From Pirellula sp. SH-Sr6A (GTDB lineage Bacteria; Planctomycetota; Planctomycetia; Pirellulales; Pirellulaceae), in assembly GCF_001610875.1 (NCBI RefSeq), contig NZ_CP011272.1, forward strand, positions 5,127,988 to 5,191,987: a DNA stretch of 64,000 nucleotides, in the 5' to 3' direction. Position 1 is the first letter of the stretch. Each line of letters starts with the position of its first letter. This document shows, in pieces, positions 49,962-61,718 of the stretch. The position numbers and the translations under genes are program-made. Under the pieces are notes generated by a model, which saw only the letters and a program-made list of their open reading frames with translations, was not told the origin of the DNA and searched no databases.

Positions 49962-50417
49962 ATGCCCTCGTCAGAAGATTTCAAGCAACACGACTCACAA
50001 AAATGGCTTGGACTGGTTGGAATATTCACAAGTCATCTGATCGCTTTTTGTGTGCTCTACCTAACGCTGACGAGATTTGTTCCAAGCCTCAAGCTACATT
50101 ACGCGAGCAATGGGGTAACGCTAACACCCGTATATAATCGTATTGAACACATCTCCGATCTCTTTGTCGCCTACTCGCTGATCTCGTTGGCAATCATCGC
50201 CGCGAACGCACTGATCATCGTGATGGTGTCCAAGTATCAACCTCGTTGGCTCTCAACCTATTCCCACTTGGTTCATTCTTGCCTCGCAGTCGCGTTGTTG
50301 TTTTCTTTTGCCTGGATGCTGAACCCGCTTTTCTCGACCGTCATGCCCACCGGGAATCTTGCAATCCCAGCGGCAATCACACAGTCTGAACAAGCGAGCG
50401 AATCCGCAAATCAATGA
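49962..50417 (+). CDS. Hypothetical membrane protein
   Basis: A 151-residue protein with three hydrophobic segments (about residues 15-38, 66-90 and 103-122), separated by hydrophilic loops. AAGGA lies at a good distance from the ATG. Composition is typical of a small inner-membrane protein. No family was recognised and no neighbour suggests a role. Confidence 0.6.
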   Translation: MPSSEDFKQHDSQKWLGLVGIFTSHLIAFCVLYLTLTRFVPSLKLHYASNGVTLTPVYNRIEHISDLFVAYSLISLAIIAANALIIVMVSKYQPRWLSTYSHLVHSCLAVALLFSFAWMLNPLFSTVMPTGNLAIPAAITQSEQASESANQ

Positions 50418-50746
50418 GGCTGAACAAGGAGGTCGTAACGCAATTCATGAGAAGAAAATAGAACGCACCAACCTTTGAGTGGTTCAAGGTGAGTGGCTAG
50501 CGTTTTTCTCGCCAACGCGCCGAGACGCAAAAGAAGATCGCATAGCGCCCTTCGAAGCTCTCGTCCTCTTGGAATTTGTAAAGTTATCAACCGTAACGAT
50601 ACTCTCACCTCACCGATACCCCTTAAGGTGTTCTGGGGACTCCCATTGAAAAACAGGTAACCACCAATGCGACAACAATCGGGCTTTATTGCATCCGCGA
50701 CCTCGCTAGCTCCGCTCGACAGCATGATTACTTTGGAAAGAGCGTT
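50418..50746. other. Non-coding stretch with dispersed repeat-like sequence
   Basis: A 329-bp region. A 26-bp segment at 50505-50530 matches 54026-54051 with three differences (core GCGCC.AGACGCAA), so it belongs to a repeat also present in the 54-kb array. A 104-codon minus-strand frame covers the region; its translation (RGRELRRALCDLLLRLGALA) appears to be a by-product of the repeat, not a gene. Confidence 0.5.
50505..50530 (+). repeat. Dispersed 26-bp repeat, copy near 50.5 kb
   Basis: This segment is 23/26 identical to 54026-54051. Both begin TTTCTCGC and end AGACGCAA. The other, more degenerate copies in the array start GAGGTTTC and continue GCGCGAAGGCGCAA (near 54450, 54720 and 55130). 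Confidence 0.6.
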
Positions 50747-51361
50747 TCAGCTTTGCCACAGGAACTTCGCTTTGTCTCTGCAATCGGTGCAAGCGAAAAC
50801 ATAGCCGGCGCCACCACCACCAAAATTAATCCCTCCGCCACCACGCTCTTCCAGCAATGCAACAAATCTCATTCGAGAACCGCAGTCGCACTCGGGGGTC
50901 TCATCGGCCTGAATCCAAAGAGGATCTCCGCCGATTTTGCCAAGCACCAACTCGTTCTCGTTGACGGCGTCGACGTAGTTATCGTCGTCCGTTTGATCTT
51001 TCACGCTTGAATCATAAGGCTTCAAGCTAACGAAGGTTTCTAGCGGGAGAACCGTTTCTCCATTTTCCGGTGCATGGATTTGGACTGATCCTGGAGTAGC
51101 GACAACGACCGCATTGCCGCCTGAGTTCGCATCCCAGTCATTGCACATTCCGGGATCGTTCTGGCACATAAAGATCAGTAAAGATTCGGGCCGCGAATTC
51201 CAAATCGGATCGGTTGAATCCGACAACATGATTTGTGCGACAAACTGCATGGACCGGCTGCATGCGCGACAAACGGGCCACTTGAAGCCTGAGACGTCCA
51301 TTGGAAGTCCACCAATTTTTGTCCTCGAGGGAATCTCGGAATTCTCGATTAGTAGGCCCAT
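50747..51361 (-). CDS. DUF1963/YwqG-like protein
   Basis: A 204-residue cytosolic protein. The ATG at 51361 has GAGG at the right distance; the longer frame to 51454 adds 31 residues. The stretch KIGGLPMDVSGFKWPVCRACSRSMQFVAQI is the YwqG/DUF1963 pattern, broken here for length. Further marks are ESLLIFMCQNDPGMC and the C-terminal pair of CxC/CxxC (CDCGSRM and CTDC), a zinc-ribbon-like end. YwqG-family proteins are often linked to toxin immunity, but no toxin is visible here. Confidence 0.68.
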   Translation of the reverse strand: MGLLIENSEIPSRTKIGGLPMDVSGFKWPVCRACSRSMQFVAQIMLSDSTDPIWNSRPESLLIFMCQNDPGMCNDWDANSGGNAVVVATPGSVQIHAPENGETVLPLETFVSLKPYDSSVKDQTDDDNYVDAVNENELVLGKIGGDPLWIQADETPECDCGSRMRFVALLEERGGGGINFGGGGAGYVFACTDCRDKAKFLWQS

Positions 51362-52134
51362 AATTTTTACCTCAGATGGATGGAGAAAACGAACGTCTTG
51401 CATCACCGATTTTCCGTCAGAGATGCCTTCATCCTGCAAACGCACGAGCCCCACACAGGTGCATGCGATTGTTCAGTACCATTCGCTTGCTTTCAGTAAC
51501 TAGTTCCGAATTCTGACGCTGGGTGGGGCGAAACACCGGATGATTCTATCGAATCCTGCAGAGCTATTCAAATCCGCGGCGGTCACGGAACACCCCGGCT
51601 CCCTAATTGGATCGAGCACGAAGAGTTGACTCGGCGCAAATCAAAACAGCCCGAAAGTTGTTCGCGCGTTCCATGACTCAAGCCATTTTTTGCTTTGTGG
51701 TCACAAGACCGATTGGCAGTCAAAGCAAGTTGTATGCAGGTGGTGATGTCCACAACTCCCCGTCACGAATAAACGTTTCCATGAATTTCGAAGCAGGTAT
51801 TGGTACTCGATAATACAGAGGTCGCCTTGTGTGCGTGCGTCTTCCAGTCTCGTTTCTTCTGCAAACCAAATTCTTCACCCGGGCGATCCAGTCAATGTCG
51901 AAACGCTTTGCTAGGCAATTCGGAAAAGGTCGCCAACCATGCCTTCCTTCGTGTAGAGATCCCACACGCGGACGCGCCAATTGACAGGAAATTCTATCGA
52001 CGCGTTTCTCGCCATCCGTACAAGAGATAGCACAACAGCAACGTTTGCGGTGCGAAAGAGAAGCAATCGAATGGAGTTGTTTCGTGGTTGTCGCATTGTG
52101 CAAGCAAGGGTGGCGATCACCATGTCGCCGAAAG
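51362..52134. other. Mostly non-coding region with a possible gene remnant
   Basis: A 773-bp stretch between the YwqG-like and a membrane-protein gene. Minus-strand frames that look protein-like overlap in two registers between 51720 and 52123. No complete gene, tRNA or mobile element was recognised in the rest. Confidence 0.35.
51720..52123 (-). pseudogene. Possible frameshifted remnant of a small gene
   Basis: On the minus strand, one frame reads ...IEFPVNWRVRVWDLYTKEG and ends at 51911. A second frame continues as FDIDWIARVKNLVCRRNE, then YYRVPIPASKFMETFIRDGE to 51720. Joining the two by one frame change would give about 130 residues. The second part faintly recalls the start of DUF2971 proteins, but this is weak. 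The ends are not defined. Confidence 0.2.
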
Positions 52135-52617
52135 TTACGGATCCAAGTTACCCATGACCTGCGAGCTAGAATTGTCAATCGGTTCCTCGTTTATTCGTTT
52201 CACGCGATCGCGCTTCGAAGCTTGGTCGATGAAGTGTCCCCCTATGATCATGGCTGCGATCGTTACAGTCATAAAGCACCAGTGGTACCAGCGCCAAGGT
52301 TTATTTATAGGGTGCTCCAGCACGAATCTGTCGAACGTATAAAAACAAAGTGTCAATAGTAATATGACTCCCAGGAACACAAGAAGGCGTATTGTCCATG
52401 GATTCCCTTCAATCGTTTCGATTCGAGAACCAGAGACTGGGGTCGTTTTTCGAACGTATCCCCACATCCCTAGCAACACAAAAGGCCCCGCACAGGAGTA
52501 ATACTGGCCAGTGAGACCAATGCAAAGTCCAGCGACAATCACTGCGGCGACTGTCCCGAATGCAAACAGGCGATCCCATCGTCTTCGAGTGAACAAAATG
52601 GTGTGCGGTTGAGTCAT
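52135..52617 (-). CDS. Hypothetical membrane protein
   Basis: A 160-residue protein with four hydrophobic segments: FGTVAAVIVAGLCIGLTG (about 19-36), CAGPFVLLGMWGY, RLLVFLGVILLLTLCFYTF (about 77-95) and WCFMTVTIAAMIIGG (about 113-127). The C-terminal tail is charged. No family was recognised. The gene stops just after the remnant region and begins 54 bp from the left end of the IS element; it is not interrupted. Confidence 0.62.
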   Translation of the reverse strand: MTQPHTILFTRRRWDRLFAFGTVAAVIVAGLCIGLTGQYYSCAGPFVLLGMWGYVRKTTPVSGSRIETIEGNPWTIRLLVFLGVILLLTLCFYTFDRFVLEHPINKPWRWYHWCFMTVTIAAMIIGGHFIDQASKRDRVKRINEEPIDNSSSQVMGNLDP

Positions 52618-52670
52618 GTCGATCTAGATTGGACTCTACGTTGATGCCACGATATCGAGGCGGTAACCTA

Positions 52671-52688
52671 GGCTCTGTTTGAAAACTG
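52671..52688 (+). repeat. IS left terminal inverted repeat
   Basis: GGCTCTGTTTGAAAACTG; matches the inverse of the right end at 17 of 18 positions. It is preceded by TA, the presumed target duplication. Confidence 0.9.
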
Positions 52689-52748
52689 GTGTTTTCGTAA
52701 CTTTGCGAATTTGCGATAATCGACGGATCGCCAATCAAGGAGGATACG

Positions 52749-53590
52749 ATGGCACGTCACAGATTAACCGATTTGCAATGGGAATGCATCGAGGAACTGT
52801 TTCCGTCTCCGAAGACAACGGGGCGGCCTCCTACGAACTACCGCTTAGCGTTTGATGCCATTCTTTGGATTCTGCGCACCGGATCGCCTTGGCGCGATCT
52901 CCCTGAAGAATTTGGGAAGTGGAGAACTATCTACGGCCTCTACGATAAATGGAACGGTGATGGAACCCTTGACGCTGTTCTGAATAAGCTTCGTTCAGCT
53001 CGCATTGATGATGGTGCAATCGATAGTGATCTATGGTGTGTCGATGGGAGCGTCATCCGTGCCCATCGATGTGCTTCTGGCGGTGGAAAAAGGGGGCGCC
53101 AGACGAGCCAGCTGATCATGCACTAGGCCGTTCGCGAGGCGGATATTCAACCAAAATCCATCTTCTCGTGGATGGCATGGGCAATCCTCTGGCATTCACC
53201 ATTACGGGAGGGCAAGCTCATGAGACCACAGCACTGCTCGAGGTCCTCGAGAAGGCCGACAACGATCTTCATGACAGCGAAGGTCGCCCGGTTGCTTGGC
53301 CAGTGAATCTTGCAGGAGATAAAGGTTATCGAGCCGAATGGATCGACGAGACGCTCATCGATCTTGGAATCAATCCGATCATCCCGTCGAAGTCGAATGA
53401 AGATCGCGACGCACGAACGGCACAATTCGACGGGGATTGTTATCGACGCCGGAATATTGTCGAACGCTCCATAGGTTGGCTCAAAGAGTGTCGACGCGTC
53501 TTTTCGCGATTCGAGAAGACCGCCATTAACTACGCTGGGATGATTAAAATGGCGATGATCGAACGATTCCTCCGAATGATGTGTAGTTAA
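52749..53590 (+). CDS. IS5-family transposase, expressed by -1 frameshift
   Basis: A DDE transposase in two overlapping frames: the first runs 52749-53126 and the second is open to 53590. A -1 shift at the A5G5 run (53087-53096) would join GGGK of the first frame to GAPDEPADHALGRSRGGY of the second, giving about 280 residues, normal for the group. Catalytic residues are the Asp in CVDGSVIRAH, the Asp in LAGDKGY, and the Glu in VERSIGWLKECRR. The AAAAAGG stretch is a plausible slippery site. A true frameshift mutation cannot be excluded, but a two-frame layout is usual here. Confidence 0.87.
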
Positions 53591-53608
53591 CAGTTTTCAA
53601 ACAGTGCC
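53591..53608 (-). repeat. IS right terminal inverted repeat
   Basis: On the minus strand it reads GGCACTGTTTGAAAACTG. It is followed on the plus strand by TA, the presumed target duplication. Confidence 0.9.
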
Positions 53609-53610
53609 TA

Positions 53611-53888
53611 GTCACCGCTAGGAATTGGTAATTACTAATCTTAATTCATCAAGGACGCCAGTTAATCGCCCCGTTCAAGGACTATTCGCGTTGGCATCCG
53701 TCTTTTCCACGATGCGAAAACCCCGGCTTCTCACATCGTCGACTCTATTGCCGAAATCTTGAGCGGACGTTGACCACTTCGAGTGTTTCACTCGGCCACC
53801 TAGTAAATGACACTTACAATTAGCGGTCGCCGGCCAAGCGAGATTGGAGTGGACTGCCAACTGGTCGAGAGCAGGTCCGTTAGGTGAC
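53611..53888. other. Region between the IS and the repeat array
   Basis: About 278 bp with no convincing gene. A minus-strand frame ends here with STSAQDFGNRVDDVRSRGFR, which could be the tail of a lost gene, but its upstream part consists of array repeats. Confidence 0.3.
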
Positions 53889-54191
53889 TGAATAGCAGGC
53901 CCCCAGTGAATAGCAGACACCCACCTTTTGGGGGGAGAGTGTATAGCAGGCACCGAGAGTGAATAGCAGGCACCCACCTTTTGGGGAGTGAATAGCAGAC
54001 ACGCACCTTTTGGGGGGAGGGGAGGTTTCTCGCAAAGGCGCCAAGACGCAACGAAACGCGATCACCAAATCCGAGGCACCCACCCATAACAGTGAATAGC
54101 AGGCACCCACCTTTTGGGGAGTGAATAGCAGACACCCACCTTTTGGGGGGAGGAACAATAAGAAGGCACCCACCTTTTGTCTTCTCCGATA

Positions 54192-54220
54192 GAAGGCACC
54201 CACCTATTGGTGGTGCCTTC
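54192..54220 (+). repeat. Hairpin within the array
   Basis: GAAGGCACC (54192-54200) pairs with GGTGCCTTC (54212-54220) across an 11-base loop that contains the rest of one motif copy. It is one place where the motif meets its own inverse, so this segment can fold in RNA or single-stranded DNA. Confidence 0.6.
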
Positions 54221-54300
54221 CCCGATAGGAGGCACCCATCTTTTGTAATTGCAACACCTAGCACCTTAATAGGAGGCACCCATCTTTTGGAGGACCGAGA

Positions 54301-54565
54301 GGAAATAGAGGGCACCCACGTTCTGGAGTACCATTCGATCGTAGATTAGGGGCACCCACCTAATGGGGGGCAGTTCAATGGACTGTTCAATGGACTCAAA
54401 TAGGAAGGGACTCAAATAGGAAGCACCCAACTTTTGGGGGGGAGGAGAGGTTTCGCGCGAAGGCGCAATGATGCAAGCGGGGAGGGGCGGAGATTGGGGG
54501 GGGAAGGAGATCAGGCTAGTGAGTTCGGATTACTCGACCCGAAATAGGAGGCACCCACCAAATGG
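54301..54565 (+). repeat. Segmental duplication A, copy 1 (265 bp)
   Basis: Almost identical to 54978-55244. It begins GGAAATAGAGGGCACCC and ends CACCCACCAAATGG. It contains several motif copies, the GCGAAGGCGCAA element, a G-run and the GAGTTCGGATTACTCGA element in the same order as copy 2. Differences are a handful of base changes and G-run length. Confidence 0.85.
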
Positions 54566-54821
54566 ACCCGAAATAGGAGGCACCCACCAAATGGGGGGAG
54601 GTAAATCGAGGGCACCCACCTTCTGGAGTACCCTTTGATCAAAGATTGGGGGCACCCACCTATTGGGAGGCAGTTCATTGGACTCAAATAGGAAGCCACC
54701 ACCTTTTGGGGGGAGGGAGGTTTCACGCGAAGGCGCAAGTGGAGATTTGGGGGCACCCATCTTTTGGAGAATGAAAATGGAAATAGAGGGCACCCACGTT
54801 CTGGAGTACGCTTCGATCGGA

Positions 54822-54977
54822 GATTGGGGGCGCCCACCTTTTGGAGGGGAGGAAACAGTTGATGGCCCTGGGGACCATCGTCTCGCACTGGGGACCATTG
54901 TCTCGCGAGTCGAGTTTTTGTCGCCTTTCCCTACTGTCCCTATTGAGTTCGGATTACTCGAATCGATGGAGCCGATG
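54822..54977 (+). repeat. Segmental duplication B, copy 1 (156 bp)
   Basis: A direct near-copy of 55374-55530. It runs from a motif copy through GAGGAAACAGTTGATGGCCC, the paired GGGGACCAT elements, and GAGTTCGGATTACTCGA to GCCGATG. The last ~38 bp resemble the 3' end of the Cys-rich lipoprotein gene. It directly abuts copy 2 of duplication A. Confidence 0.8.
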
Positions 54978-55244
54978 GGAAATAGAGGGCACCCACGTTC
55001 TGGAGTACCATTCGATCGTAGATTGGGGGCACCCACCTATTGGGGGGCAGTTCAATGGACTGTTCAATGGACTCAAATAGGAAGGGACTCAAATAGGAAG
55101 CACCCACCTTTTGGGGGGGAGGGGAGGTTTCGCGCGAAGGCGCAATGATGCAAGCGGGGAGGGGCGGAGATTGGGGGGGGGGAAGGAGATCAGGCTAGTG
55201 AGTTCGGATTACTCGACCCGAAATAGGAGGCACCCACCAAATGG
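54978..55244 (+). repeat. Segmental duplication A, copy 2 (267 bp)
   Basis: Second copy of the 54301-54565 segment, in direct orientation about 680 bp downstream. High identity points to a recent duplication or gene-conversion-like event. Confidence 0.85.
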
Positions 55245-55373
55245 GGGGAGGGAAATCGAGGGCATCCACGTTCTGGAGTGCCCTTCGATCGCAGATTGGC
55301 GGCACTCACCTAACCAACCCTTTGATCAAAGATTGGGGGCACCCACCTAACCAACGCTCACCTAACCAACGGA

Positions 55374-55530
55374 GATTTGGGGGCACCCACCTTTTGGAGG
55401 GGAGGAAACAGTTGATGGCCCTGGGGACCATTGTCTCGCCCTGGGGACCATTGTCTCGCGAGACGAGTTTTTGTTGCCTTTCCCTGATGTCCCTAGTGAG
55501 TTCGGATTACTCGACTAGATGGGGCCGATG
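55374..55530 (+). repeat. Segmental duplication B, copy 2, entering a gene (157 bp)
   Basis: Second copy of the 54822-54977 segment. Its right end overlaps the last dozen codons of the Cys-rich lipoprotein gene on the minus strand (55493-55530). The array therefore borders on, or grew out of, the gene's 3' end. Confidence 0.8.
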
Positions 55531-56152
55531 CGTTGCGAACTTGGACTTTCGAAGGTGTCGATCGATAGCGAGCGTTCTCGTCAGGTGTAGGGGACGGTGC
55601 TGGTGCCGGGACCGATTCCAGCCTTGGTTTGGCGGGCGTCGGCTGCATGGATCCACTCGGGCGATTGGATCTGCTCGGAGACGCGGGAATGGCTTGCACG
55701 CTTTCTGGAGCATAGTCACCTTCGGAGACGATCATTCCCGAATCATAGGATGATTGGCAGCTTGAACATCCAGATGCACCAACGTGACCGGTGCTGCAGG
55801 TGGAGCAGTCATTGGGAACATATTGGAATCCCCAAAGCTCTCGAAAACGGCTGAGTGCGCCTGGGCATCGCCCACAGGAATCGCCGCCAATAAAGGTGTT
55901 ATCGCATCCGCAAGGATCGCAAACGGGTGGTTCGTTGATTTGCTCGTCCCAATACACCTCGCCACACCCCGAGTTGCAATGATTGACGGATAGTCGAGAG
56001 GCGATGCGATTGCGCAGTCCTAAACCATCGCAACCGACGTCGCATCCCGTCCCGCATGCGTTACCGTAGCGATCGACAACTTGAATTCCGCAGCAGCCGA
56101 TCTGCAATGCAAGCGTGAACAAGGCTACCCATCCGAACGCAATTGATCTCAT
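55493..56152 (-). CDS. Cys-rich secreted lipoprotein, planctomycete type
   Basis: A 219-residue protein. The signal MRSIAFGWVALFTLALQIGC ends in a lipobox-like Cys. Residues 20-130 hold about 20 cysteines in short patterns (GTGCDVGCDG, DPCGCDN, CSTCSTGHVG), so the exported protein should be heavily disulfide-linked or metal-bound. The C-terminal 80 residues are Pro/Ser/Arg-rich and probably unstructured. Its last codons (RVIRTH) lie within sequence repeated in the neighbouring array. No function is known. Confidence 0.75.
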   Translation of the reverse strand: MRSIAFGWVALFTLALQIGCCGIQVVDRYGNACGTGCDVGCDGLGLRNRIASRLSVNHCNSGCGEVYWDEQINEPPVCDPCGCDNTFIGGDSCGRCPGALSRFRELWGFQYVPNDCSTCSTGHVGASGCSSCQSSYDSGMIVSEGDYAPESVQAIPASPSRSNRPSGSMQPTPAKPRLESVPAPAPSPTPDENARYRSTPSKVQVRNASAPSSRVIRTH

Positions 56153-56368
56153 GTCTTGACTCCCAAGGTTGTTGGCTACCAGGGGGAGTATCGGCTCGCA
56201 TAATCCCTACAATCAGCAAATCTTGCCAAGATTCCCGTTCAAACCTCCCTCGCCTCCCCATTTTTCCCAGTCTGCGTGCGCGGTATTTTGGTCGACGATT
56301 GAAGCCTTGGCGGCGAACGTCCGATGGATCAAGGACCGTACCACTGTCTCTCACGAGAATCGGGTTCT

Positions 56369-56656
56369 ATGGACATCGACCGCAACCGCTACTTCATGTT
56401 CGGAGTAATCCTATTTCTGTTAGGTCTCCAATTTCGGCTCGTGGATTCTTTTGTCCTGAACGAGAGTAGCACGCGCACGTTACACAAAATTGCGCAACAG
56501 TCTAAGATTGCGGACAACAATGTCGCAACGAACATGTATATGGAGATGGGGACTCCCAAGAAATCGATCAAGCCGCCGAACTGGGTTGGTTTTGTTCTCC
56601 TCACGGCAGGTGGGGTGATGGCTCTGCATGCCATGGTGCTCCCAAAGCGTTCGTAA
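56369..56656 (+). CDS. Small hypothetical membrane protein
   Basis: A 95-residue protein when started at the ATG at 56369 (MDIDRNRYFMFG). Two hydrophobic segments: FGVILFLLGLQFRLVDSFVL and WVGFVLLTAGGVMALHAMVL, joined by a hydrophilic loop (SSTRTLHKIAQQSKIADN). The frame extends to 56324 without a better start. It faces away from the Cys-rich lipoprotein gene and precedes another small gene 87 bp downstream on the same strand. Confidence 0.65.
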   Translation: MDIDRNRYFMFGVILFLLGLQFRLVDSFVLNESSTRTLHKIAQQSKIADNNVATNMYMEMGTPKKSIKPPNWVGFVLLTAGGVMALHAMVLPKRS

Positions 56657-56743
56657 AGCGAAGACCCTGCGGTAAGGCACTTTGAAGTGCGCTCCTCGTC
56701 TACTCCTCCTTGTCGACCTTCTCTGGAAAAGGATTTCCTCATC

Positions 56744-57166
56744 ATGAGAAATCGGTGGCGAACAGTCCGATCCCCTGCGCTTTGGGTTTTGCTCAGCGCA
56801 GCGGCGATTGCAGGCGCATCCAATTGGAGGTCGGAAACTGCTGGATCCGTAGCAACTTGGGGGAGCGAGATCGGCGCTAGCCCGGTTCAGAATCGTTCGA
56901 GCGAAGACAAGGAATCTCTGCTCCGTGAAGACACTCCCCTTACTCAGTTGCGGGGACGATTTCGTCAATCGGGCGATCGCATTTTGTTTACCGAAGAGGG
57001 GGCCAGCCGATCGATGAAATGCCTGGAGAATCTTTGGCTTCAAAGGATTTTGGATTCGCAGAAAAACGAAGATCGCAAGGTGATTTGGTTGGTCAACAGC
57101 GCTCGAGTTACCGAATTCAACGGCGAAAACTTTCTGTTGATTGAGAGCGCGACCAAGACGCGATAG
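56744..57166 (+). CDS. Small exported hypothetical protein
   Basis: A 140-residue protein. The ATG at 56744 has AAAGGA upstream and begins a signal-like segment (SPALWVLLSAAAIAGASN). The mature part has a short conserved-looking domain (LRGRFRQSGDRILFTEEGAS, then CLENLWLQRILD and VIWLVNSARVTEFNGENFLL). No family was recognised. It is convergent with the kinase gene 57 bp away. Confidence 0.65.
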   Translation: MRNRWRTVRSPALWVLLSAAAIAGASNWRSETAGSVATWGSEIGASPVQNRSSEDKESLLREDTPLTQLRGRFRQSGDRILFTEEGASRSMKCLENLWLQRILDSQKNEDRKVIWLVNSARVTEFNGENFLLIESATKTR

Positions 57167-57223
57167 CGAGAACGCGAGCGGTCGTCGCGTTGTTGCCGAA
57201 GATTTGAAGTAACCTATTCCGGC

Positions 57224-58792
57224 CTATGAAGCCGTGGCTGCTTCCGTGGTCTGCTTGGTCATCTCGCGCTGATCCCAAGCCACGCGGATGGCTCTGGGAA
57301 GTGATCCAAGGATAAGCTGTCTCTTGTCCGGCTGGTCACTCAATTCGCTCAGAAGGGTTTCTGCTTTTTGAAAGAATGCTTCCGCGAACGCGTTGTCGGG
57401 GTTCCCTCTACGTTCGATCCATCCCATTTCAATGTTCGCAATCGCCGCAATGACTTTGTCCGTATCCGGAAACCCCGAGGTCAGCACCTTTCGCAACGAA
57501 TCTCGAGCCTCTTCGTAATTGGAAGCCTCTATGTGAAGCCTAGCTATTTGAAGCTCGGCCTTGAGGTAATAGTTTCTGCTTACCGCGTCTTTGGGTGGGT
57601 AGTACTCGGATATTGCATTCCAATGGCGAAGGTCGTTTTCGAGAATGGCCAAGGCAAATTGTTTCTCGATGGTCTCTTGGCGAGGAACTCCCACTCCTGT
57701 TACCGGGCCACCGAACAGATCGTGATAAGTGACTCCATAGACGATACCCATGGTTGCAAGGCCGACGGCTAAACAAGCCGCTGCACGTAAGAGGGGCGCT
57801 GCCCAAGCTCGCTTGTCACCTTTGCGAATATTCTTGTTTTGCTCGGTGGCGAGTTGTTGCAATTGCTGCGTTACTGCCAGATTGCTCAGACGTTGATGTT
57901 CGATTACCAAACCCGTGAACGGAATCATCTTATCGATGCTGCCACCCATGACTTCATCGATCACACCTCGCAGCGACCTGCTCAGTTCGGCAGCGGTTGC
58001 GAATCGTTCTTCCGGACTTTTGTTCAGTAGCTTGTGTACGATATCGACCAGGGAGTCTGGCAAGTCAGGGCGCAGTTGCTTGAGAGATACGGGAATCGCC
58101 TGTACGTGCTGCATGGCTAAGGCCAAGGGTGTTTCCCCTGAGAAGGGAGGACGCCCTGAGAGCATGTGATACGCCGTCGCGCCGAGAGAGTACAAGTCGC
58201 TACGGGAATCGACGGCCAAGCCTTGGATTTGTTCCGGGCTCATGTAAAGAGGCGTACCGAGCGCGACACCGACTGCCGTCAAGTTCTGCGATTGTCCCCT
58301 CGCCCTGGCCAATCCAAAGTCGGCGATCTTGACTTCACCATCGGGTGTAAGAAGTAGGTTATCAGGCTTGATGTCGCGATGAACAAGTCCGATGGATGAT
58401 GCCTTTTGCAAAGCCGCAGTGGCTTGCCAGAGGATCGAGATCGCTTCCGCCAGCGGGAGCGCACCGCGTCTTTGGATATAAGCGTGGAGATTGCTGCCGG
58501 GAACATACTCCTGCGCGATGTAATGGATCGAATCGAACTTCCCGACGTCGTAGACTTGGACAATGTTCGGGTGCATCAATGATGCGACAGCCCTCGCCTC
58601 TTGGAGGAAACGCTGCTCATGGTCTTGCGAACCGACGTAATCGGATCGCATCACTTTGAGCGCGACGTGTCGGTGAAGCGATTGTTGAAACGCCAGATAT
58701 ACCTCGGACATCCCACCGACCCCCAGTCGATGCAGGATCGCATAGCCGGCAACGGTCTTGTTGGTCAATTCTGGGGATGAATGGTTGAACAT
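57224..58792 (-). CDS. Transmembrane Ser/Thr protein kinase
   Basis: A 522-residue Hanks-type kinase. GVGGMSEVYLA forms the ATP loop from residue 24, Lys46 lies in VALKV, HRDIKPDN at 138-145 is the catalytic loop, DFG is at 158-160, and GTPLYMSPEQ closes the activation segment. A membrane helix follows at ~332-356. The extracytoplasmic C-terminus of ~165 residues is helical and TPR-like (NYYLKAELQIARLHIEASNY). The start at 58792 is one base after the upstream gene's stop, so translation is probably coupled. It may sense envelope conditions and phosphorylate FHA partners. Confidence 0.92.
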   Translation of the reverse strand: MFNHSSPELTNKTVAGYAILHRLGVGGMSEVYLAFQQSLHRHVALKVMRSDYVGSQDHEQRFLQEARAVASLMHPNIVQVYDVGKFDSIHYIAQEYVPGSNLHAYIQRRGALPLAEAISILWQATAALQKASSIGLVHRDIKPDNLLLTPDGEVKIADFGLARARGQSQNLTAVGVALGTPLYMSPEQIQGLAVDSRSDLYSLGATAYHMLSGRPPFSGETPLALAMQHVQAIPVSLKQLRPDLPDSLVDIVHKLLNKSPEERFATAAELSRSLRGVIDEVMGGSIDKMIPFTGLVIEHQRLSNLAVTQQLQQLATEQNKNIRKGDKRAWAAPLLRAAACLAVGLATMGIVYGVTYHDLFGGPVTGVGVPRQETIEKQFALAILENDLRHWNAISEYYPPKDAVSRNYYLKAELQIARLHIEASNYEEARDSLRKVLTSGFPDTDKVIAAIANIEMGWIERRGNPDNAFAEAFFQKAETLLSELSDQPDKRQLILGSLPRAIRVAWDQREMTKQTTEAATAS

Positions 58793-58793
58793 A

Positions 58794-61718
58794 CTAGCGG
58801 CTCCAACGCACGGCGATTCGACATTGTTCCGAAGGTCGAAGATTGATGAGAACCTGGCCGTCTTCCACATCCAGTTTAGTCGATTGTCGATGGTGTGCGT
58901 CGATTCGCCATGCTTCCTCTGCGTTTTTCAAGAAACTCAGCTTGGTCGAGGCTCGTTTCCCTCGCGTCTCTCGCACCCAGAACAACGAATCGAATGATTC
59001 TCGCGGAGCGTCCTCGTCGACCCACATCGTTCCGTCCCGAGGATCGTCCCCTTCGATGCCGACATTGGGAAGATTGCTTTGGGCCAACCAAGCTCCGGAG
59101 TCGACTTCGTCGGATGCCAATCGAACGGCCGTCCAATAGGCTGGATCGATTCCGTCCTGTGCGGTCTCTAGCGGGCGTGGCCAGTCCATGCCCAACCGCA
59201 ACGCAAACCTCGCACATCTGGGGCCATCGTGTGGCAACGGGGTTACCAGATAGCGATGGTCGAATCGCTGGTGAGTCGACAATCCGCCTGCGGCCAGGTA
59301 GATCTTGTTCTCAATGTCGTCAATTTCTACCAACTCCACGGTCGCCTGCATGGGAGCGGGGAGTTTACCCTTCGTTCCTTGCTGCCAAGCGGAAAGAGTT
59401 GCCGATTCGTTTGCCCAAGCGGTTCGCCATACGCACTGAAAGCGATGATCGTGGGGGGCGTCGCACTCGACGTCAATGTCGATCCATCGCGCCCCCTTCC
59501 ACAATGTGTAGCGCGTCGTCAGTCTGACAGGCCCCACCCCGGGTACGACCGTTGTTCCTGTCGTTTCGATAACCCCTCGAACAGTAGAGTTCTCAATCAG
59601 ACGCAGCTCGGTCTTGTCACGGGGCAAGAAATCCGCTTCCTGCCATTTCTTGCCAGCACCCTGTTCTCCCAGAACAATCGAGGCCATCCCGCTCATCCGG
59701 CTTCCCCGTTTGTTCGGCACGAAGACCGATCGCAAATGCCCCTTCTTCGGATCGATCTGCACTTCGAGATATTCATTGGCGAGGGTCCAGTCCGAATCTG
59801 CGATGCCGGGCCGCTTTCCAGTGAGTTTGCTCAACACACCTGGTCTGGAAAGGACGGGTCGTACAGGCCCCGTTGCCTCATTCAGCCCGGCAGCTCGCAC
59901 TTTGACAAATCCAAAAGGAGGAAGATCCGCAACCAAATGACTTCGATTGCCCTGGGTGACTGCCCCAACGATACGTGTCGACGAGCCGGAATCGATTTCT
60001 CCCGGAATGCTTTCCAAGAAAACGCGTCGAGCGTGACTGCTGTTGTTCACAATCAAATAACCATTTGGCGACCCAGATTCGGTCGCGGCTACTCCAGCCC
60101 CTGCAATCATTTCTAACAACCGACTCTTCGCATTCAAGAAATCTGCTTCCAGTTCCTCCGACGAACGGAAAACATCCGGTTGCGCCGAAGCGGTACAGTC
60201 CTTACAGCGATGCGCTTTACTCTCTATCGCAAGAATCGATTGGGCGAAATCTCTCGTAATGCACTTCGGGGCAACATTTTGCCATATCCATGCGAGCGAT
60301 CGGAGGCGGGAGGTTCGAACGAATCGACCGTATGCCCCAAGATGCTCCCGTTGTTGAGCTGCAATCTGGGGAGCATCCCCTACCAACGGAATTCGGAACT
60401 GGCGATTCTGAAAAGCGTCCGAGCTGTAGGGTTGATTCGTTGTGGTAAAGAATCTTTCCATTCGATCCAACGATCCCAACGCAGGGGAACGCTTCATCAC
60501 GGCAGCGAGATCCGCATACGCATCTGCGACTTGGTCGGGCCAATGTGCCAAGACCAATGTGGGGACGTGGTGATAGTCGAGCTGTTTGGAAAGGTGGGAA
60601 GTGAAATGCAGGAAAGTTTCTGCATTGGACGCATCGACCACATGCCCCAATACCGCATCGATCGCATCTCCCTCCGAATGGGCTTGCCAGCGAATCTTTG
60701 CTGAATCCTTTTCAGGGACAATGCCACCTGACCATGCGTGGATAAGTGCACCGCGGTAGCCATGGCTGAGCAATAGATCGGGGTACAAACTACTCCAACC
60801 CGGGGCAAACTGGCTGAATATGGTGGGAGGTTCCACTCCCAGCGTCCGATACGATTCCGCTCCGTCCTTGAAGGCTTGGTCAATCCCCCAGTGGGTAGAA
60901 AAACTCGACTGCAATTCGCGTTCGAAACCCCCGATCAACTCCCATTCGCTTTCCACCAGCTTTTGTCGAAGGCGACGCCAAGTCTCGGGCTTCTCGTCGT
61001 GAAGCTTCCGCAGCAGAGATCCATTAGCAAGTAGCCCGATCGATTGAGGTGCATCGAGTTGTCTTGAAAATGCCTCGCCCAAGGTTGACTCTGCGAGTAG
61101 AACGACTTCGAGGAGATGGATCTGTTGTGAGCAATAGCGATCCCGCTCTTGCGAAACCGTATCGAAGGCGGCCTGGATCCATCGCTCGGTTTCCTCGGCG
61201 TCCCCAGCCAAAGCGGCTTTCGCTGCGGAGAGAACTTGTTCAGAAAACGCGAGCCAATCCAAGTTCCACGAGTATCGCAGTTTTCTCGCCATGATTTGGA
61301 TCTGCAGGACTGCGTATCCAAGAGCATAAAAGTCACTCAAGCACAGAGGAATCGCGTTCGGAATTTCGACTTTTTCATCTGCAAGCCCCTTGGCGATGGC
61401 TTCGAACAAGTCTGAGCGCTTTCTACCATTGCTGTCGATGGTCAAGCACTTGCCCAGCGTCAACCGCTCTCGCTGCGGTTGATCCACCTTGTCTCGACTC
61501 CACTCCGGTATGACGACGACAGACGATTCGAGTTCCAAGGAACTCGAATCGGAGCGTTTCCACTCGGGTAGGGAATTCAACGCTACTAAAAGTCTCGGGT
61601 CCCACCCGACTGTCCAAGCAGCTAGAAAATCGGCCGCCGTTTCATGTCCAACGCCTGTTGGCAAGTCTTCGATAGCATAGCTGGGAACGACGATGACGGA
61701 ACGCTGAATGGGAGACAT
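58794..61718 (-). CDS. Large GH38-like protein (alpha-mannosidase-related, function uncertain)
   Basis: A 974-residue protein. The middle shows GH38/57-like phrases (GGFERELQSSFSTHWGIDQAF, IFSQFAPGWSSLYPDLLLSH), and the last ~350 residues are a beta-rich domain like the GH38 C-terminal region (LANEYLEVQIDPKKGHLRSV, RYTLWKGARWIDIDVECDAP). The classical HxHxD/NDPGW entry motif is not visible, so activity is doubtful. No signal peptide is seen. It lies between a DUF1080 gene (45 bp upstream) and the kinase gene (1 bp downstream), forming one operon. Confidence 0.55.
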   Translation of the reverse strand: MSPIQRSVIVVPSYAIEDLPTGVGHETAADFLAAWTVGWDPRLLVALNSLPEWKRSDSSSLELESSVVVIPEWSRDKVDQPQRERLTLGKCLTIDSNGRKRSDLFEAIAKGLADEKVEIPNAIPLCLSDFYALGYAVLQIQIMARKLRYSWNLDWLAFSEQVLSAAKAALAGDAEETERWIQAAFDTVSQERDRYCSQQIHLLEVVLLAESTLGEAFSRQLDAPQSIGLLANGSLLRKLHDEKPETWRRLRQKLVESEWELIGGFERELQSSFSTHWGIDQAFKDGAESYRTLGVEPPTIFSQFAPGWSSLYPDLLLSHGYRGALIHAWSGGIVPEKDSAKIRWQAHSEGDAIDAVLGHVVDASNAETFLHFTSHLSKQLDYHHVPTLVLAHWPDQVADAYADLAAVMKRSPALGSLDRMERFFTTTNQPYSSDAFQNRQFRIPLVGDAPQIAAQQREHLGAYGRFVRTSRLRSLAWIWQNVAPKCITRDFAQSILAIESKAHRCKDCTASAQPDVFRSSEELEADFLNAKSRLLEMIAGAGVAATESGSPNGYLIVNNSSHARRVFLESIPGEIDSGSSTRIVGAVTQGNRSHLVADLPPFGFVKVRAAGLNEATGPVRPVLSRPGVLSKLTGKRPGIADSDWTLANEYLEVQIDPKKGHLRSVFVPNKRGSRMSGMASIVLGEQGAGKKWQEADFLPRDKTELRLIENSTVRGVIETTGTTVVPGVGPVRLTTRYTLWKGARWIDIDVECDAPHDHRFQCVWRTAWANESATLSAWQQGTKGKLPAPMQATVELVEIDDIENKIYLAAGGLSTHQRFDHRYLVTPLPHDGPRCARFALRLGMDWPRPLETAQDGIDPAYWTAVRLASDEVDSGAWLAQSNLPNVGIEGDDPRDGTMWVDEDAPRESFDSLFWVRETRGKRASTKLSFLKNAEEAWRIDAHHRQSTKLDVEDGQVLINLRPSEQCRIAVRWSR

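Follow-up and report, generated by a model that had tools for sequence, protein, structure and literature searches.

This study asks what kind of element is represented by a crowded intergenic block of short repeats in the chromosome of Pirellula sp. SH-Sr6A, and how that block could have grown. The block lies in a 64,000-nt stretch of DNA (hereafter the window). We found 26 copies of the motif GGCACCCACCTTTTGG at positions 53889-55400 when up to three mismatches were allowed, all of them (26/26) on the plus strand. In shuffled sequence 0.007 copies were expected, with a maximum of 1, and no copy was present in the remainder of the 64,000-nt window on either strand at the same threshold. The copy number depends on the rule used: a 10-mer with one mismatch or a 16-mer with four mismatches gave 29 copies, in agreement with the approximately 29 irregularly spaced copies reported in a preliminary description of this DNA, and repeat finding recovered 25 copies of a 24-mer with an irregular spacing of 29-159 bp. 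An AATAG/GATTG-type stretch lies upstream of the motif copies, whose sequences grade into one another. The main features of the block are:

53889..55400, plus strand: array of the (N)ATAGNRGGCACCCAYCTTTTGG-type motif, strand-pure, 26 copies with at most three mismatches
53916, 53969, 53998, 54102, 54131, 54165, 54195, 54231, 54275, 54311, 54351, 54422, 54550, plus strand: starts of motif copies 1-13
54579, 54611, 54651, 54694, 54752, 54789, 54829, 54988, 55028, 55099, 55229, 55261, 55382, plus strand: starts of motif copies 14-26
53991..54116, plus strand: module consisting of a motif, a GGGGAGGTTTCTCGCAAAGGCGCCAAGACGC spacer and a motif

Other short repeat families are present as well, namely AGGTTTCTCGCAAAGGCGC (four copies), a GATC-centred 73-mer (five copies), CTGGGGACCATYGTCTCGC (four copies) and GAGTTCGGATTACTCGA (four copies, including one at the end of the neighbouring gene), and the longest G-run was ten rather than the nine of the preliminary description. 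The view expressed there that the block is neither a CRISPR array, a tandem satellite nor an IS agreed with our results. First, a CRISPR array was rejected on account of the spacing (29-159 bp), the graded repeats and the spacers, which are themselves repeated. Second, a tandem satellite was rejected, as no head-to-tail run of one unit was present: TRF reported only fragments of two to three copies with different periods, and thus the block is no regular satellite.

The block is intergenic, with an IS5 copy on one side and a gene whose last codons lie at 55493-55530 on the other:

52668..53612, plus strand: IS5-family element with two overlapping ORFs, adjoining the array but not within it
55493..56152, minus strand: gene for a Cys-rich protein of 219 aa, with homologues in 21 of 27 genomes of the genus

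The IS5-family transposase is split over two overlapping frames, like that of frameshifting elements, and two other copies of the element, in L169 and L063, match it at 99.9% identity.

Stepwise growth of the block by successive local duplication, as the preliminary description had supposed, is visible in three internal duplications (92.5-98.4% identical):

54292..54565 to 54968..55244, plus strand: shift of 676 bp, 96.8% identical over 277 bp
54818..54977 to 55370..55530, plus strand: shift of 552 bp, 92.5% identical over 161 bp
53958..54020 to 54091..54153, plus strand: shift of 133 bp, 98.4% identical over 63 bp

These duplications reach the neighbouring gene. Segment 54818..54977 contains sequence common to the end of that gene, the last codons of the gene sit within the outermost duplicated segment (55370..55530), and 23 bases comprising the stop and last codons (55493-55515) recur exactly at 54516-54538 and 55195-55217. 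Most orthologues that were read have a conserved tail; it is missing from the 219-aa protein, whose C-terminus ends in array-shared sequence. The array may have supplied this new gene end or may have copied it. An expansion of a gene tail, one of the origins considered at the outset, therefore holds in a limited sense only, in that the repeats have sequence in common with the last part of the adjoining gene, its stop codon included. A similar alteration was observed at 3.87 Mb, where an IS1380 copy (L022:7211-8107) retains the first 897 of its 1888 bp and is cut exactly at the start of the array; intact IS1380 copies are present in L166 and L167. Thus, the arrays damage their neighbours. The block might also be read as a decayed protein-coding repeat gene, given that repeated, PKRWVPAIHS-like peptides occur in minus-strand frames that stay open for 100-171 aa. 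However, many of the spacings (29, 34, 44, 128 and others) are no multiples of three, so that the repeat peptide switches frame, and the remaining cluster loci in the genome (see below) would need to be pseudogenes as well; we give this reading almost no credence.

The possibility raised in the preliminary description that the motif belongs to a family dispersed over the genome was borne out by a search of the complete chromosome (6,534,136 bp), which revealed 172 copies with at most two mismatches, compared with 5 for a reversed control. Nearly all of them (160/172) fell in 19 fetched loci, 18 of which were clusters, and a looser count gave 298 copies over 18 loci. Almost every copy (221 of 222 with at most three mismatches) followed the direction of its own locus. 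Sampling of 0.88 Mb elsewhere in the genome yielded single copies at chance level and one more array (L199), which was found by chance; the count of arrays may omit those made up of diverged copies alone. With copies concentrated in loci and singles elsewhere at chance level, the motif family is clustered rather than scattered. Parts of the window array are shared with other clusters, as stretches of the module at 53991..54116 were 87-97% identical to array loci at 1.81, 2.68, 3.87 and 6.15 Mb. The exact 16-mer of the window was absent from 99 relatives, 26 congeners among them.

The orientation of the arrays appeared to change along the chromosome. Before ~3.1-3.3 Mb, 8 of 8-9 sites had their array on the minus strand, and past this point 6-7 of 8-9 sites had it on the plus strand (Fisher p 0.002-0.015). 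The switch near 3.1 Mb is about half a chromosome away from dnaA (0.6 kb), as would be expected if insertion were dependent on the replication strand. However, array L199 (2.6 Mb), which was outside this test, has the opposite direction, and sampled GC skew was so weak and irregular that origin and terminus could not be located from it, and it did not confirm the switch. Thus, a replication-strand bias should be taken as a lead. A search for parS sites gave nothing useful.

We also considered whether the block could be a functional structured RNA or regulatory DNA, that is, a transcribed repeat, a terminator cluster or a protein-binding platform for the flanking genes. Two of the 26 copies fold strongly as single-stranded DNA, one of them starting at 55261 (z -4.7) and the other being:

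54186..54219, plus strand: near-perfect hairpin motif copy GAAGGCAC-CCACC-TATT-GGTGG-TGCCTTC, -12.4 kcal/mol, z -6.2

The mean over all 26 copies was z -0.9, and only these two were below z -4, most copies folding hardly better than shuffled sequences; the earlier suggestion of a structured element is thus weak. The Rfam family Acido-Lenti-1 (RF01687) is interleaved with the motif at four other array loci, but an Rfam search around the block (window positions 50000-60000) found no match, RF01687 included. Furthermore, gene context differs between loci, the exact motif is missing from the 26 congeners, and the array has changed, rather than served, the end of the adjoining gene. It is very unlikely that such a function explains the block.

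A link to a transposase was missed in the preliminary description because it is not visible within the window. We found a unit of ~1.5 kb, 95-99% identical between copies, inside the arrays at 11 loci. Over 400 bp, these loci have essentially only the unit, the adjoining array and a few ISs in common, with the exception of a 463-bp stretch (79% identical) shared by L017 and L027. The gene of the unit encodes a protein of 390 aa, all 11 copies being intact and 98-100% identical. In each of the 11 copies the conserved unit sequence reaches a motif on both sides, and in this genome the two flanking motifs have the same direction in 11 of 11 cases. The window array itself has no transposase gene; the copies closest to it are at 4.40 and 6.15 Mb.

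The 390-aa protein is predicted to be a HuH/Y1, RAYT-like transposase. Sequence comparison by itself gave very faint signals: a weak match to NCBIfam REP_Tyr_transpos (E 1.5e-6, below the cut-off), no Pfam match at 0.001 for the protein alone, a weak Pfam Y1_Tnp match in 47 of 49 homologues and no relative in a PDB sequence search. The residues N76-H77-x-H79 of the HuH motif and Y189, D191, L192 and N193 were invariant in sets of 20 and 49 sequences, and about 200 residues follow the Y motif. A structure model built with 48 homologues from public genomes reached pLDDT 85.7 and pTM 0.87 (single-sequence model, pLDDT 45), and its best PDB match was 4ER8 (probability 1.00, E 5.9e-4, TM 0.66 of target), the E. 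coli REP-associated transposase TnpA_REP bound to a REP hairpin, followed by IS200-like, ISDra2 and IS608 transposases. This HuH/Y1 transposase family (family A) has probably multiplied recently in the genome.

A second RAYT-like family (family B) with six copies, 39% identical to family A, is flanked by 19-bp CTGGGGACACTCAC arrays of its own, and its motif is present in 142 copies in the genome. The array at 2.464 Mb contains dozens of CTGGGGACACTCACGAGGA copies, and the B-family motif GGGGACAC fits GGGGWSAS, the published TIRtron consensus. The loci are:

L061-L066 (0.107, 0.59, 0.89, 2.46, 2.55, 2.80, 2.89 Mb): B family with tandem 19-bp CTGGGGACACTCACGAGGA arrays

To examine motif and transposase in relatives, we scanned public genomes and analyzed 80 loci, nearly all from Pirellulaceae and other planctomycetes (Rhodopirellula, Stieleria, Neorhodopirellula and others). 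Homologous genes in Pirellulaceae were bracketed by inverted motifs GGTGCCACCCACC. Within 1.3 kb on the 3' side of the gene, the 80 loci contained 66 occurrences of TGCCACCCA (3 inverted), and on the 5' side they contained 80 of TGGGTGGCA (2 inverted). The background was 3 in 235 kb further out, and permuted 9-mers gave an average of 0.3-0.5. Exact GGTGGGTGGCACC was found 8-37 times per genome in nine relatives, compared with 0-1 for controls. When three classes of flanking motif were placed on the protein tree, 13 changes were needed, compared with 37.4 after shuffling, and none of 200 shuffles was as low. Thus, the flanking motif tracks the transposase protein tree across Pirellulaceae. The window motif deviates from the family motif, the common part being CACCCACCTTT; one example of the family motif, GGTGCCACCCACCTTTT (L081), has CACCCACCTTTT in common with it. 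Plasmid relatives of the protein were found in Alteromonadales, Vibrionales and Aeromonas, several of them near 325 aa. Of the six plasmid loci read, two, both from Pseudoalteromonas, had inverted GACACCCA-type motifs on either side of the gene.

Based on these results, the block probably represents a solo cluster, enlarged locally, of the end repeats cognate to a HuH/Y1 (RAYT-like, subclass 2.3-like) transposase. The predicted fold, the residues, the linkage and the copy number lead us to infer that this protein acts on the motif by cutting and moving it, and that such activity seeded the window array. The target of the transposase would be the strand with ...ATAGnnGGCACCCACCTTTTGG, where it would nick single-stranded DNA; segments bounded by motifs, among them the transposase gene itself, would be moved between clusters. 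Once at least two direct copies are present, recombination or slippage could enlarge the array locally, and the same processes may shuffle spacer modules and eat into adjoining genes. The local duplications, the sharing of modules and the changed gene ends were observed directly. Several findings speak against this account, namely the lack of a gene at the window array, the direct orientation of motifs that are inverted in relatives, the divergence of the window motif, its mostly weak folding and the lack of a GTAG/GGAG foot.

The main rival keeps only the recombination half of this mechanism: the block would be a self-growing, minisatellite-like array, its motif a relic of an ancient element that was later multiplied by replication slippage and unequal recombination, with no current part for the transposase. 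The large internal duplications (shifts of 133-676 bp), the modules common to several loci and the lack of a transposase at the window locus are all compatible with it, and junctions at motifs are the outcome of recombination between repeats. Array breakpoints do fall at motif boundaries, but ordinary recombination predicts this too and the breakpoint test is biased because motifs are present in every module; motif-enriched breakpoints were therefore rejected as proof of transposition, as they do not separate transposition from recombination. However, the motif class is specific to the transposase flanks family-wide and tracks the protein tree, 11 near-identical units lie within arrays in otherwise unrelated contexts, and a second transposase family has a different array. 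A purely minisatellite-like origin thus appears rather unlikely.

The reading as cognate end repeats places the block in a kind already known, i.e., REPs with RAYTs and TIRtrons; what is new is the 11 transposase copies and the motif at a subclass 2.3-like gene. As in REP/RAYT systems (REPtrons), the transposase has a predicted HuH/Y1 single-strand fold with 4ER8 as the top structure match of the model, every transposase family is paired with a short cognate repeat of its own that is largely intergenic and present in many copies, two families coexist in one genome with separate repeats, and the repeats flank a RAYT-like gene at 11 loci, though not at the window array. In contrast with canonical REPs, the GT[AG]G foot is missing, with AATAG, GATTG or AATCG in its place, and the window copies mostly fold weakly, whereas canonical REPs are palindromes of 20-40 nt with a stable hairpin. 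Unlike the inverted pairs of BIMEs and REPINs, the arrays are direct and strand-pure (221/222), with almost no lone dispersed copies. Moreover, tnpA_REP is reported to be mostly single-copy, without evidence of mobility (PMC8266576), whereas the transposase here occurs in 11 near-identical copies.

Comparison with TIRtrons gave a similarly mixed picture. A Y1 gene bracketed by short inverted repeats that are also clustered elsewhere was observed in the relatives (66 vs 3 and 80 vs 2 occurrences), and Di Nocera et al. (2013) list Rhodopirellula baltica as rich in such genes (TIRYTs) and repeats (PMC3733652). However, the repeats around the A-family gene of this genome have one direction on both sides, and the expansion (298 loose copies, 18 loci) is larger than the 8-37 exact cores per genome in relatives, two counts whose definitions differ. 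As for IS200/IS605 elements (IS608, ISDra2), HuH/Y1 chemistry with ends recognized on one strand would be expected here by analogy. Single-stranded circle excision between directly oriented ends is established for IS608, and the directly oriented ends found here would allow the same. On the other hand, the ends are motif arrays, not one left and one right hairpin, and the protein has 390 aa compared with about 125-155 aa in solved IS200-type chains.

In its length, its tail and its taxonomic spread, the 390-aa protein is similar to TnpA-Y1 subclass 2.3. Members of this subclass are the longest (median 325 aa), have a long C-terminal tail and are prevalent in Alteromonadales and Chromatiales (PMC6006769); the long protein, its long C-terminal tail, the Y---N motif and the presence of several copies per genome agree with this. 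Quentin et al. (2018) described subclass 2.3 genes as lacking REP-like sequences and as having genomic copies without high identity (PMC6006769), whereas the gene has a CACCCA(C)-type motif on both sides in Pirellulaceae and at two Pseudoalteromonas plasmid loci, and the copies within this genome are 98-100% identical. The conserved flanking motif forms at most a short hairpin, and thus a structure-based search could miss it. We tentatively suggest, although we doubt it more than we believe it, that Y1 proteins of the subclass 2.3-like type are autonomous single-strand transposons active at present, with ends consisting of a short CACCCAC-type motif that has hardly any structure and is kept from planctomycetes to Alteromonadales. 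In this species, a switch of both ends to one orientation would free any motif-bounded piece, and the resulting arrays would be modular, strand-pure and able to overwrite the ends of genes.

The spread of REP-type repeats is still debated, since the linked transposases are usually single-copy and their movement is unseen. In this respect, 11 near-identical units in species-specific arrays, together with a second family with another repeat, amount to a natural experiment that makes cutting and movement, as well as array growth, directly testable. Our results also suggest that subclass 2.3-like proteins, reported to be without REP-like sequences, have conserved short target motifs.

Several other elements were observed at array loci. 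Acido-Lenti-1 gave 21 matches in composite repeats of ~240-400 bp, interleaved with the window motif and on the opposite strand:

L017:9772-10791 (1.27 Mb), L020:9768-10603 (2.75 Mb), L027:8213-11981 (4.57 Mb), L199:5711-11461 (2.60 Mb): Acido-Lenti-1 loci

RF01687 is a proposed sRNA of unknown function. It was not found at the transposase loci of 16 relatives, and the arrangement seen here suggests that it may belong to a mobile repeat and not be an sRNA in its own right.

The window motif is also a target of ISs. Repeated insertions of a 1.65-kb IS (476-aa transposase, ends GAATGGCACTGTAATC) interrupt the motif, with GGCACCCA on either side of the element:

L024:9694-11339, L027, L030, L013, L016: loci of the 1.65-kb IS

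An ISKra4-like IS with ends GGGTGCATTTGCTTTTATGG lies within the array at L022. Insertion of ISs into REPs has been described (PMC1525189). Two further repeats were noted. First, nine GTTTCAATC copies are located directly upstream of a RAYT-like gene in L091:1-689 (MAG UBA11397 contig_164998), possibly a CRISPR array beside that gene. Second, a tandem array of ~170-bp units (96-98% identical) at L167:2767-3960 adjoins an IS1380 copy, and diverged relatives of these units are present in L178 and L175.
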